Shown here piece after piece: positions 8,705-12,918 of a stretch of DNA of 34,945 bases. The notes under the pieces were generated by a model, which ran no database searches, was not told the DNA's origin, and was given only the letters and a program-made list of their open reading frames with translations. A program made the position numbers and the translations under genes. How positions within the stretch are numbered: the first letter of the stretch is position 1; the number at the start of each line of letters is the position of its first letter. Source of the DNA: Myxococcales bacterium (lineage in GTDB: Bacteria; Myxococcota_A; Polyangia; Fen-1088); assembly GCA_003153015.1 (NCBI GenBank), contig PMBS01000156.1:131-35075 (forward strand). The letters run 5' to 3'.

Positions 8705-9684
8705 CAGAAATGCAGCTCGACCCCCAGGCTGATGCGGACCCCAACCGCGGGGGTCTGGAAGACTCGGCCTGGCTCGTTCTTGAACACGAACTCGGTGCGC
8801 CGCAGGGGAGCCAATACATCCACATGCAGGGGAATCCTGAAGTGGGGGCCAAGGGGGATTGCCGCGTAGGCGCCAGCGCCCAAGGCCGACCATAGGGTTT
8901 GGGCGGGCAAGCTCTCGCTGACACCAACTCCTTGGGCCGACACCACACCAAGTTCGGCATCCGCACAGGCGCCAAAGGCCAAACCTTCTCGCCCGAGGTT
9001 GAAACAAGCCGCGAGCGCCGCGGCGGTGAGGTTGAACTGGCCATAGGCACCAGCGGGTGTCGCTGCCATGGCCTTCTGGTCACGCCGCAAGCCGTAGGTC
9101 CCACGCAGTTCCACGCGCCAACGTCGCCCGGCCAGGCCGACCCCGCCGCCCAGGCCCACGTCGAAAGAAGGCAGAGTCCGGTAGCTGCCGACTGTGTGGA
9201 TGCCCAGGAGGTACTGCATGGCTCGGGGTTTTCTCTGAAGCGCGGGATCGGTTTCCGCGGGCGGCGTCGCCGGAACCGGTTTGGGCGGCGTCGCGTGGGC
9301 TGCTACCGCGTTTGGATCGATCATCAGTGCGATGATGAGAGCCGTAGCATCGGCGAGATCCTGGCAGGAGGCGGCCTCAATCGACCGCTGTCCGGGTCGG
9401 CCTGCCAATTCGGTTTCGACCGCGAGCGACCAGGTCTGCCCATGCGACACCTGCGCGCGCGCCTTGATGTCGCCGCCCTGGGGCACGCGTATGTCCCCGC
9501 CCAGCAGGCGCGCGATCTCGGCGCGCAGGTCATCGCGCGAAGGACAGCCCGCAGGCGCCTGCCAGGAGATTGTGAGTGCGCCTGGCTCATCGGCGTGGAC
9601 CAAGCGCGCACTCCCCAGCATGGCCAGAGTCAGCACGGCGCTTGCAAAGAGAATGCTAGGTGGCCGCCGGTTCACGCGATCCAC
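8704..9684 (-). CDS. Predicted outer-membrane/periplasmic protein ahead of the ECF sigma
   Basis: This 326-aa protein starts at GTG 9684. It has a cleavable signal peptide (residues 1-about 31, SILFASAVLTLAMLGSARLVHA). An N-terminal domain of about 100 residues (ISWQAPAGCPSRDDLRAEIARLLGG ... SCQDLADATALIIALMID) contains two Cys. A Pro-rich hinge follows, then a Gly/aromatic region of alternating hydrophobic strands ending VGVRISLGVELHF. The C-terminal Phe and strand pattern are typical of outer-membrane beta-barrels. Proteins of this layout sit near sigma factor genes in myxobacteria (recalled, not searched). It is the first gene of the six-gene minus block and is coupled to the sigma by TGATG. 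It may sense or respond at the envelope, but its exact role is unknown. Confidence 0.82.
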   Translation of the reverse strand: MDRVNRRPPSILFASAVLTLAMLGSARLVHADEPGALTISWQAPAGCPSRDDLRAEIARLLGGDIRVPQGGDIKARAQVSHGQTWSLAVETELAGRPGQRSIEAASCQDLADATALIIALMIDPNAVAAHATPPKPVPATPPAETDPALQRKPRAMQYLLGIHTVGSYRTLPSFDVGLGGGVGLAGRRWRVELRGTYGLRRDQKAMAATPAGAYGQFNLTAAALAACFNLGREGLAFGACADAELGVVSAQGVGVSESLPAQTLWSALGAGAYAAIPLGPHFRIPLHVDVLAPLRRTEFVFKNEPGRVFQTPAVGVRISLGVELHF

Positions 9685-9785
9685 AGTACACCCGGTTGGA
9701 GCGCGGTGAGAAACGGTGCGATCTGCCTTTTCCGAAGATCAAGCCTTCCCTGAAGCGCCGTTTTGGTTATCGTCGGGCTGTGCAA

Positions 9786-12167
9786 ATGACCTTCGAGGCC
9801 TGGTTCGCTGCGCGCTATCCCCAGATCCCGGCTGCGGGCGCCGCGGCGGTGCTCCGTCTGGCCGAGGACGGGGCCACGGTGCCGTTCATCGCGCGCTATC
9901 GCAAGGAGCAGACCGGTGCTCTCGACGAGGTAGCCATCCGCGCGGTCATCGACGGCAAAGAGTCTTGGGACGACATCGTCAAGCGGCAGGCGTATGTCGT
10001 TGGCGAGATTGAGCGGCAGGGAAAGCTGACGCCTGAGCTGCGCGACAAGATCCTGGGCAGCTTCGACATGACGGCGCTGGAGGATCTGTATCTGCCGTAC
10101 AAACAGAAGCGCAAGACCAAGGCGGTGATCGCGCGTGAGGCGGGTCTGCAGCCGCTGGCCGACTGGCTGTGGGATTGCGGCCTCGGAATCATCGCGCCCG
10201 CGCCGGGTGAGACCCCCGACGGCCACGCCAGCGCGTTCTGCGATCCAGCAAAGGGCGTGCCCGATGTGGACGCGGCCCTGAATGGCGCGATCGAGATCCT
10301 GGTCGAGCGCCTATCCGAGGATGCGGGTCTGCGCAGCACCGTGCGCACGCGCTATTTCGAGGACGGATTTGCCAAGACCCGCCAGGGCGAAAAGGCCAAG
10401 CCGGCCAGCAAGTTTGAGAACTACTTCAGCTTCGAGGAGCCGGTGCGCAACCTACGCAAGCCGGAAAACTCGCACCGCTACCTGGCCATGCGGCGGGGCT
10501 GGATGGAAGAGGAGCTGGTGATGACCCTGGGCGGCCCCACGCCAGCCGAGCCTGCTGAGCCAATCAAGCCGCGCACCGGCGGCCCGGCCGATCGATTGGT
10601 CGAGGAGCTGCTTCACGGCTTTGAGGCCGCCGCGTGCAGCAAGCCCAATTTCGAGGGTGCGCCTCTGCTGAAAAAGGCGGCGCGCTTCGCCCTGCGTGTG
10701 CACGTGATCCCGGCCATCGAGAACGAGGTGCACAAGACCTTGCGCGAAGTCGCCGACGAAGCGGCCATCAAGGTGTTCGCCGAGAACGTGCGCAAGCTGC
10801 TCCTGTCCGCGCCGTTCGGGCCCAAGGCGGTGCTGGGCGTGGACCCGGGGCTGCGCACCGGCTGCAAGCTGGCGGTGGTGGATGATTCGGGCAAGTACCT
10901 GGGCAGCACGGTCATGCACCTGGAAACACCGTCGGGGCTGGCCGCGGCGGGCGGCATCCTGGCCAAGCTGGTCAAACAGGGCGGCATCCGCGCGGTGGCA
11001 GTGGGCAATGGCACCGCGGGCCGCGAAACTGAAACCTTCGTGCGCAAGGTGCTGGACGAGGCGGGCCTGCACGCGCCAGTGGTCATGGTCAGCGAATCGG
11101 GCGCCAGCGTGTACAGCGCCAGCGACGCCGCCCGCGAGGAGTTCCCCGATCTCGACGTCACCGTCCGCGGCGCCATCTCCATCGCGCGCCGACTGCAGGA
11201 TCCCCTGGCCGAGCTGGTGAAGATCGATCCCAAGAGCATCGGCGTGGGCCAGTACCAGCACGATGTCTCGGCCACCGCGCTGAAGAAGAGCCTGGATGTG
11301 GTGGTGGATTCTTGCGTGAACCAGGTGGGCGTGAACCTGAACACGGCCTCGTATCATTTGCTCGGCCATGTGTCGGGTATCGGCCCGGCCCTGGCCAAAG
11401 CCATGGTCGAGCACCGGGGCAGAAAGGGCTTGTTCCGCTCGCGCGCCGCTTTGCTGGAGGTGCCGCGTTTTTCCGCAAAGGTGTTCGAGCAGGCTGCCGG
11501 CTTTCTACGCATCCCCGAAGCCGAGCACCCGCTCGACAACACCGGCGTGCACCCCGAGCGCTATCCGGTGCTGGAAAAACTTGCGGCGCAGCTGCATGTC
11601 GCAGTGGCTGGGCTGCTGGGTCCCGGGGTCAGACTGGTCAAGCAAGCGCGCGAGCTGGAAAAGCAGCTGGGCGCCTTCACCTTCGCCGACATTATTGCCG
11701 AGCTGGAAAAGCCCGGCCGCGATCCGCGCGAAAGTTTTGCGCCGTTTTCTTACCGCCAGGACATTCACACACTCGACGATCTGCAACCCGGCATGCTCTG
11801 CCCCGGCATCGTCACCAACGTCACCAACTTCGGCGCCTTCGTCGACATCGGGGTGCACCAGGACGGATTGGTGCACATCTCCCAGCTTGCCGACCGCTTC
11901 GTCAAAGACCCGCGCGAGGTGGTGAGCGCCGGCGATCGGGTCAGCGTGCGCGTGATCGAAGTCAAGCTGGACAAGCAACAGATCGCGCTCTCCATGAAGT
12001 CAGGCGCGGAGGTGGCGCGTGGGCACGACGAAAAGAGCGGCGCCCCACACGACGACCATAGCGGCGGCAGCCGTCCACAAGGCCCGCGCGCCTCTGTGCC
12101 CGCGTCCCAGCCCAAGAAGCCTTTCAACAACCCCTTCGCCGGTCTGGAGAAACTGCGCGGGAAGTAG
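9786..12167 (+). CDS. tex: Tex-family transcription accessory / S1 RNA-binding protein
   Basis: This 793-aa cytoplasmic nucleic-acid-binding protein is close to the usual Tex length. The N-terminal Tex domain starts MTFEAWFAARYPQIPA and includes VPFIARYRKEQTGALDE. A YqgF/RNase H-like fold follows at about 340-450 (VLGVDPGLRTGCKLAVVDDSG). Helix-hairpin-helix motifs come next (LLGHVSGIGPALAKAMVEHRG), then an S1 domain at about 660-735 (GIVTNVTNFGAFVDIGVHQDGLVHIS). The tail is low-complexity and ends NNPFAGLEKLRGK. ATG 9786 is chosen by homology rather than the track start at 9660; no clear Shine-Dalgarno is seen. Tex is linked to transcription and to tolerance of RNA polymerase stalling. It diverges from the sigma block across about 100 bases that must hold both promoters. 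Confidence 0.97.
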   Translation: MTFEAWFAARYPQIPAAGAAAVLRLAEDGATVPFIARYRKEQTGALDEVAIRAVIDGKESWDDIVKRQAYVVGEIERQGKLTPELRDKILGSFDMTALEDLYLPYKQKRKTKAVIAREAGLQPLADWLWDCGLGIIAPAPGETPDGHASAFCDPAKGVPDVDAALNGAIEILVERLSEDAGLRSTVRTRYFEDGFAKTRQGEKAKPASKFENYFSFEEPVRNLRKPENSHRYLAMRRGWMEEELVMTLGGPTPAEPAEPIKPRTGGPADRLVEELLHGFEAAACSKPNFEGAPLLKKAARFALRVHVIPAIENEVHKTLREVADEAAIKVFAENVRKLLLSAPFGPKAVLGVDPGLRTGCKLAVVDDSGKYLGSTVMHLETPSGLAAAGGILAKLVKQGGIRAVAVGNGTAGRETETFVRKVLDEAGLHAPVVMVSESGASVYSASDAAREEFPDLDVTVRGAISIARRLQDPLAELVKIDPKSIGVGQYQHDVSATALKKSLDVVVDSCVNQVGVNLNTASYHLLGHVSGIGPALAKAMVEHRGRKGLFRSRAALLEVPRFSAKVFEQAAGFLRIPEAEHPLDNTGVHPERYPVLEKLAAQLHVAVAGLLGPGVRLVKQARELEKQLGAFTFADIIAELEKPGRDPRESFAPFSYRQDIHTLDDLQPGMLCPGIVTNVTNFGAFVDIGVHQDGLVHISQLADRFVKDPREVVSAGDRVSVRVIEVKLDKQQIALSMKSGAEVARGHDEKSGAPHDDHSGGSRPQGPRASVPASQPKKPFNNPFAGLEKLRGK

Positions 12168-12177
12168 GCTCCGAAGC

Positions 12178-12310
12178 TAGCTTTTTCACCACAGAGGGCA
12201 TAGAGAACACAGAGATCGTATAGGAAGAAGTGGTCCGGACCGACTGGGGCCAACCCTTTCCTCTCCCATCCGCCTCTGCGACCTCTGTGCCCTCTGTGGT
12301 GAAAAAGCTA
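12178..12310. repeat. Long-armed imperfect inverted repeat of the CACAGAGG type
   Basis: The left arm (12178-12214) is TAGCTTTTTCACCACAGAGGGCATAGAGAACACAGAG. The reverse complement of the right arm (12273-12310) reads TAGCTTTTTCACCACAGAGGGCACAGAGG..., so 23 bases pair perfectly and the rest imperfectly. The enclosed about 58 bases are not coding. Repeats built on CACCACAGAGGnCACAGAG are scattered through many bacterial genomes (established in general terms). This copy could be a non-autonomous mobile element and may also act as a terminator after tex. No target-site duplication was identified. Confidence 0.7.
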
Positions 12311-12378
12311 ACTCGTCCATCGTCTGATCTCGTGATGATTCTGGCTGCCATTGAGGTATTCTTCATGCGGGTTGCTTG

Positions 12379-12918
12379 ATGATGAACCGGTGCTTCCCAG
12401 TCTTTGCTCCTTTGTTTTTGGCGATAGCGGCGGTTGCCGCTCCGGGAGGTCGTGCCATGCAACTTACTTCGCCCGACTTTTCGCCCAACGGACAGATCCC
12501 CACAGCCCACACCTGTGAAGGGGCAGACCGCGCGCCGGGCCTGGCGTGGACCGACGTGCCCGCGGCCAGCAAGAGTTTCGTGCTGATCGTCGACGATCCA
12601 GACGCACCGGATCCGGCGGCACCCAGGATGACTTGGGTGCACTGGGTGGCCTACAACCTGCCCGGCGCAACCCGCGCCCTGGCGCCCGGGGGAATCCTCC
12701 CGGCGGGCGCACTGGAAGGTCTCAACGACTGGAAGCGCGTTGGTTGGCGCGGCCCTTGTCCGCCCATCGGCCGCCACCGCTATTTTTTCAAGTTGCACGC
12801 ACTCGACATCACGCTGCCAGACCTGAAGCGGCCGTCCAAGGCGCAGGTTGAGAAAGCCATGCAAGGGCATGTGCTGGCGCGGGCCGAGTTGGTTGGCACC
12901 TACCAGAAGCAGAAATGA
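12379..12918 (+). CDS. Secreted PEBP-family (YbhB/YbcL, Raf kinase inhibitor-like) protein
   Basis: This 179-aa protein has a signal peptide (MMNRCFPVFAPLFLAIAAVAAPGGRA) followed by the complete bacterial PEBP fold. It carries the start MQLTSPDFSPNGQIPTAHTCEG, the ligand-pocket motif IVDDPDAPDP, the strand WVHWVAYNLP, and the signature GWRGPCPPIGRHRYFFKLHALD. Bacterial homologs such as YbhB are small proteins of uncertain function, thought to bind phosphate- or phosphoethanolamine-like ligands. The signal peptide makes this one periplasmic. Start codons TTG 12376, ATG 12379 and ATG 12382 are all possible. It stands alone after the repeat and is not obviously part of an operon. Confidence 0.93.
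   Translation: MMNRCFPVFAPLFLAIAAVAAPGGRAMQLTSPDFSPNGQIPTAHTCEGADRAPGLAWTDVPAASKSFVLIVDDPDAPDPAAPRMTWVHWVAYNLPGATRALAPGGILPAGALEGLNDWKRVGWRGPCPPIGRHRYFFKLHALDITLPDLKRPSKAQVEKAMQGHVLARAELVGTYQKQK

Follow-up and report, generated by a model that had tools for sequence, protein, structure and literature searches.

A hairpin between tex and a PEBP-family gene as a probable gene-less copy of a GxxExxY mobile element

The inverted repeat and its dispersed copies

The window analyzed here, a stretch of 34,945 nucleotides from a Myxococcales bacterium, carries an inverted repeat between two host genes, tex and a gene of the PEBP family. An inverted repeat had been predicted at this junction at positions 12178-12310. 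Our results confirmed its presence, with arms slightly wider than those given: the repeat spans window positions 12175-12313, with arms of 40 nt (35/40 matched) and a spacer of 59 nt. The features of the locus are as follows.

9660..12167, plus strand: tex, the left neighbor, a host gene (Pfam Tex_YqgF, Tex_N and S1)
12175..12313, no strand: the whole putative non-autonomous element, 139 bp; conservation fades beyond RRGYTAGC, and BLAST match ends coincide genome-wide
12175..12214, plus strand: left arm, AGCTAGCTTTTTCACC, then CACAGAG at 12190-12196, CATAGAG at 12199-12205 and CACAGAG at 12208-12214
12206..12207, plus strand: AA spacer, unpaired against 12281-12282 (GT on the opposite strand), a conserved 2x2 internal mismatch
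12215..12273, no strand: spacer; its inner stem is rich in purines (GGAAGAAG... / ...CTTTCC), and it is similar to subterminal sequence of full-length GxxExxY elements
12274..12313, minus strand: right arm (reverse complement), CGCAGAG at 12274-12280, CACAGAG at 12283-12289 and CACAGAG at 12292-12298, then the tip TTTTTCACC
12376..12918, plus strand: PEBP-family gene, the right neighbor, a host gene (Pfam PF01161)

The exact 23-base match between the arms that had been reported, TAGCTTTTTCACCACAGAGGGCA, was recovered at 12178-12200 with its complement at 12288-12310. Each arm contains three CRYRRAG heptamers (mostly CACAGAG) set 2 nt apart, and outside the heptamers are found CACC, a T-run and the tip RGYTAGC. 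A 19-nt pattern occurred 2 times in the window versus 0.01 times expected; a chance origin of the repeat is therefore excluded. As the original prediction had claimed, the element is AT-richer than its surroundings (GC of 54%, whereas the window has 65%, tex 66% and the PEBP gene 64%). The sole ORF tested across the element (12124-12870, minus strand) had no Pfam match. RNA folding of the window element gave -75.2 kcal/mol, versus -39.1 +/- 4.0 kcal/mol for shuffled sequences (z = -9.0), and no Rfam 15 family was matched in the window at its gathering score. Transcription termination had been proposed as a further check on this copy; a search of positions 11900-12600 for an intrinsic terminator (a G+C-rich stem, then a T-run) detected none.

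The source genome is a draft of 5.84 Mb in 385 contigs and is 87% complete. A search of this genome with a 24-nt arm, allowing up to 3 mismatches, returned 90 forward and 88 reverse hits, compared to 0 for a control pattern, and the window hairpin is one of about 90 copies scattered in it. Alignment of 51 oriented copies from three congeneric species extended end to end over ~116 bp with a mean column identity of 83%, the interior included, which indicates that the short copies share one origin and are not independent palindromes. On either side, conservation among 72 copies faded ~13 nt beyond CACC. Among seven congeners, arm hits ranged from 4 to 375 per genome. The tex-PEBP junction carried the copy in G002 and G004 but lacked it in G001 and G003, while G005 had no clear copy there. 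These copy numbers, the presence/absence pattern at the junction and the end-to-end likeness of the copies support the proposal of a mobile repeat that recurs in many genomes; the element occurs in many copies and is patchily distributed at tex-PEBP, as opposed to a single copy conserved at this site in distant relatives. No clean insertion joint was seen at tex-PEBP, where the empty intergenic DNA of the congeners is too diverged. Likewise, we observed no target-site duplication signal in 3309 combinations of offset and length, the best z of 3.1 being equal to that of random pairing; the ends may be ragged.

In 44 of 71 short copies, AA in the spacer between heptamers 2 and 3 of one arm faced GT or GC in the other arm, and the arms matched at the variable spacer positions 19 and 20 less often than by chance (9/71 and 5/71, versus 31.5 and 24.2 expected). 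This conserved AA/GY mismatch suggests that the hairpin has a polarity. The arms of the window family are near-invariant, so covariation is uninformative in this family. At L021:1500-1685, one arm and part of the inner stem are duplicated beside an intact copy, as by slippage or repair; a nested insertion was considered for this locus and rejected in favor of a local duplication of one arm.

GxxExxY genes, their arms and repeat abundance

The sole GxxExxY gene of the source genome (G000:C350:399-743) is placed between two arms of the window repeat. This element measures 455 bp end to end, its ORF runs through both arms, and the encoded protein scored 149.7 bits against TIGR04256, for which the curated cut-off is 35. 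GxxExxY is TIGR04256 / PF13366 (PDDEXK_3) of the PD-(D/E)XK superfamily, and the element gene matches PDDEXK_3 only. The original prediction, which held that repeats of this kind have no known mobilizing enzyme, had missed this gene, a candidate enzyme carried on the element itself. Full-length elements were 424-692 bp long, with a median of 480 bp (36 elements). The arms of the short copies are of the same type as those of the gene-bearing GxxExxY element in the same genome, and subterminal likeness between short copies and the full element reached p<0.05 (uncorrected) at 7 of 14 ends tested. By sequence, the short copies thus resemble the full element minus its gene. Among predicted GxxExxY proteins, the tails TTEGTEDTE and SVSSVPSVV are annotation artefacts accounted for by arm read-through.

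The own-genome GxxExxY element and the window copy are both intergenic; the former appears to lie between a recA start-like sequence on the minus strand and a ComM/Mg-chelatase-like ORF (L031:1-323 and 815-2239). GxxExxY matches were found on plasmids in seven records, mostly of large plasmids. Viral contigs and phage records contained no GxxExxY, and a phage or viral origin was rejected on this ground.

An AlphaFold2 model of the ~120-aa GxxExxY protein (pLDDT 96, pTM 0.88) was compared to solved structures using Foldseek. The best matches were PD-(D/E)XK nucleases (SSO0001, Cas4, lambda exonuclease, LHK-Exo, Hjc and the catalytic domain of the homing endonuclease I-Bth0305I); by E-value, these PDB matches were weak (0.005 to 0.2, with probabilities of 0.66-1.0). 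No sequence relative with a solved structure was found in the PDB. The glutamate of the GxxExxY motif, a D and an ExK in the spacing of the superfamily, followed by H and Q, were conserved across 66 diverse loci. As modeled, the GxxExxY protein is likely a nuclease.

The association of gene and arms was assessed at 80 contig loci from Chloroflexota, Planctomycetota, Bacteroidota, Acidobacteria, Verrucomicrobia, Proteobacteria, Cyanobacteria, Methanosarcinales and others. An inverted repeat tightly flanked GxxExxY at 54 of the 77 usable loci, versus 1 of 763 shifted positions (Fisher p = 2e-65), and the other 23 of the 77 were without a clear inverted repeat. A replicate from a phylum sample placed 10/18 GxxExxY loci in inverted repeats versus 1/169. 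The arms were nearly always trains of CRCRRAG heptamers (CACAGAG, CACGGAG, CACGAAG, CACAAAG, CGCAGAG or CGCAAAG), and the arm type was common to a gene and its nearest protein neighbor in 19 of 44 cases, compared to 8.6 expected. Quite different arms, namely GAGAGGTGGGGAGGG, GGAAGGCGGGAAGG and GGATGGGAGGAGG, accompany the GxxExxY genes at L047, L051 (G029, G045), L196 and L205, and these arm families escape a search for CACAGAG.

GxxExxY was often co-oriented between co-directional genes (L281, L282, L284 and L285-L314), such as fabD-fabG in Sphingomonas, radA and a FAD protein gene in Bacteroides finegoldii, and ade and a mannose-1-phosphate guanylyltransferase gene in Bernardetia. Because its orientation is shared with the co-directional flanking genes, GxxExxY expression may ride on host transcription.

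Repeat abundance followed the presence of the gene. Within the window family, all 10 genomes with the gene had 4-375 arm hits and all 8 without it had 0-1 (p = 2e-5). All 12 repeat-rich genomes of the phylum sample (at least 9 hits, a threshold set after the counts were seen) carried GxxExxY, against a background of 37 of the 284 genomes (p = 4e-12); 25 of these 37 were not rich in the CACAGAG motif, some of them with other arm types and some with none detected. For CGCAAAG, genus g10 gave 90 hits in G029 and 128 in G045, where the GxxExxY genes include CGCAAAG-armed ones, and 0 hits were found in G020, in G037 and in the CACAGAG genomes G000 and G004. Of the genomes tested, only the two with a CGCAAAG-armed GxxExxY were thus rich in CGCAAAG. 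In Sphingomonas, 27/28 genomes with the gene at fabD-fabG were repeat-rich, versus 1/12 without the gene there (p = 6e-8), and eight further genomes of named loci had 16-131 triple-heptamer hits, compared to 0-2 in controls. These counts carry no phylogenetic correction; the pattern recurs in at least three lineages. One genome, G098, contained nine fragmentary GxxExxY matches, which suggests a graveyard of decayed copies.

Joint exchange of gene and arms in Sphingomonas

GxxExxY is a long resident of the fabD-fabG locus in over 100 Sphingomonas genomes. The arms at this locus vary by species, and left and right arms change in step. We analyzed a set of 30 loci, picked for their likeness to a query of type A. 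In the protein tree, arm types A, B and C each formed one clade (supports of 95/94, 100/99 and 99/97), whereas in the flank tree the arm types were scattered and four nearest-relative pairs differed in type, three of them with good support. In AU tests, the flank pairs were rejected by the protein data (p 1e-6 to 1e-59), and types A and B as clades were rejected by the flank data (p 4e-5 and 1e-4, respectively).

The 200-bp flanks of YK209 and G469 were 100% identical on both sides, versus ~75% identity for the element between them (~57-85% per window of the comparison); flank identity of same-type relatives was about 95% at most. One switch point lies no more than ~12 bp short of the fabD end and the other by ~15 bp past the right arm, and such sharply mapped exchange edges were obtained for this pair only. 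By these comparisons, gene and arms travel as a unit in Sphingomonas, and most of the exchanges could be ordinary homologous recombination.

Hairpins of the CGCGAAG and CGCGGAG types were both present in Sphingomonas regardless of the type of the resident gene, which does not support strict subtype matching. No target-site duplication was derivable from empty fabD-fabG sites, the sequences of which are not alignable. G541 (L315) has an element-free fabD-fabG junction at about 92% flank identity, yet has 27 heptamer-repeat hits; recent gene loss or a copy elsewhere is possible. Concentric hairpins were seen at L327, L332, L333, L339, L340 and L344-L346 (Sphingomonas G424, G429, G560 and G539), with CGCGAAG outer arms around CGCGGAG or CGCAGAG inner arms and a short purine-rich linker on each side. 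These represent either a compound element or the nested insertion of one copy into the center of an older one, and nested cases could expose the target site.

A candidate mobilizing nuclease, rival explanations and known systems

The association of gene and arms, the correlation with abundance and the joint exchange are solid observations. We consider it probable, at roughly 0.7, that a GxxExxY mobile element gave rise to the window hairpin as a non-autonomous copy, mobilized by the predicted nuclease in a REPIN/RAYT-like manner; mobilization by this protein is the step that we infer. The full element would comprise one GxxExxY gene between inverted arms of three CRCRRAG heptamers each, of the CACAGAG type in the window. 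The predicted nuclease would recognize the heptamer hairpin, possibly extruded or single-stranded, in which the invariant heptamers (three in each arm) are the apparent recognition units and the AA/GY mismatch would supply polarity. A maintained mismatch in the stem would point to recognition of a folded strand with polarity, as in REP/RAYT. The GxxExxY protein would bind the arms and nick or cut at or near them, repair would place copies of the element at new intergenic sites or in place of a resident allele, and host replication and recombination would complete the copying. Gene-less short copies would spread in trans. The suggestion that the repeat is copied by a host factor is probably wrong, as the repeat tracks, flanks and swaps together with an element-borne GxxExxY gene, and a RAYT is unnecessary for explaining the data. 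As a whole, the interpretation given in the original prediction is partly supported.

An unlikely alternative, although the best of those considered, is a homing-like selfish gene that spreads by gene conversion after its nuclease has cut alleles without the gene or with a different version of it; the hairpins would then be decayed elements or products of cutting and misrepair, as opposed to transposed copies. The unit replacement within 100% identical flanks in YK209/G469, the repeated swapping of alleles at fabD-fabG, the fold match to the PD-(D/E)XK homing endonuclease I-Bth0305I and the many Sphingomonas genomes with one gene copy at a fixed site all agree with homing. However, it leaves unexplained the tens to hundreds of uniform gene-less copies, with aligned interiors, at unrelated sites.

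More doubtful is an explanation in which the hairpins are moved by another enzyme (RAYT/HUH or a DDE transposase) or arise by replication slippage, with GxxExxY as a passenger that adopted the arms. The hairpins do resemble REPINs and MITEs, an arm is locally duplicated in L021, and the enzymatic role of GxxExxY is putative. Nevertheless, if GxxExxY were a passenger, repeat abundance should not follow its presence in at least three separate lineages, nor should the gene recur within matching arms in many phyla.

We regard as improbable a host function in which the arms serve nuclease-based regulation or defense as operators, terminators or protected sites and are spread by selection, not by self-propagation. 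Long residence at fabD-fabG in over 100 Sphingomonas genomes is consistent with such a function, as is the weak match of one Sphingomonas GxxExxY to a reverse-transcriptase-associated PDDEXK defense model. However, the window copy has no terminator signature, PADLOC returned no match for the own-genome GxxExxY, and the 4-375 copies among seven congeners, together with the presence/absence at the site, fit mobility. Finally, the position of the hairpin, intergenic and directly 3' of tex, would suit an ordinary intrinsic terminator or a chance palindrome, an explanation that is dismissed by the missing T-run, the about 90 copies genome-wide and the lack of the hairpin at this junction in G001 and G003.

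Beyond the window hairpin, we lean toward the view that GxxExxY elements are undescribed, phylum-spanning minimal mobile elements of bacteria and archaea, in which GxxExxY, a stand-alone PD-(D/E)XK-fold protein, is the sole gene product, co-diverges with its own arms of three heptamers and copies gene-less hairpins in tens to hundreds per genome. In the open-access journal literature, neither a link between GxxExxY and repeats nor a matching kind of mobile element was found. On this view, a common orphan repeat (the CACAGAGG type) has a candidate enzyme, and a biological role is given to a protein family that lacked one. If this is true, an unrelated enzyme would have provided a second way into the REPIN/RAYT lifestyle, and a PD-(D/E)XK nuclease with inverted arms would be a third route for the multiplication of short bacterial repeats, beside DDE and HUH enzymes.

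REPINs are short non-autonomous hairpins present in tens to hundreds of copies per genome, and their cognate RAYT gene is single-copy, mostly vertically inherited and associated with more REPINs where it is present (PMC8049555). GxxExxY hairpins are likewise high-copy inverted repeat doublets that are more numerous in genomes with the gene than in those without it. However, RAYT is an HUH/tyrosine transposase and GxxExxY is a PD-(D/E)XK-fold protein with a match to PDDEXK_3 only; membership in REPIN/RAYT fails because the GxxExxY enzyme is not an HUH tyrosine transposase. Also unlike REPIN/RAYT, each GxxExxY arm strings together three heptamers separated by 1-3 nt, and the gene is placed between the two arms.

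Like MITEs, the gene-less copies end in inverted repeats and have the appearance of a gene-bearing element that has lost its interior. In contrast to the MITEs of DDE insertion sequences, the full GxxExxY element has no DDE transposase, no target-site duplication was detected at the possibly ragged ends of the copies, and the long hairpin arms contain direct heptamer repeats. With PD-(D/E)XK homing endonucleases (I-Bth0305I and I-Ssp6803I), GxxExxY shares the predicted nuclease fold, a single gene and unit replacement at one locus; it differs from them in having inverted arms, dispersed gene-less derivatives and no intron or intein host. The element gene qualifies as a member of TIGR04256/PF13366, a family named by its motif only. 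TnsA of Tn7-like transposons is a PD-(D/E)XK-fold protein that is active at element ends. TnsA needs TnsB and other subunits, whereas the GxxExxY element has one gene.
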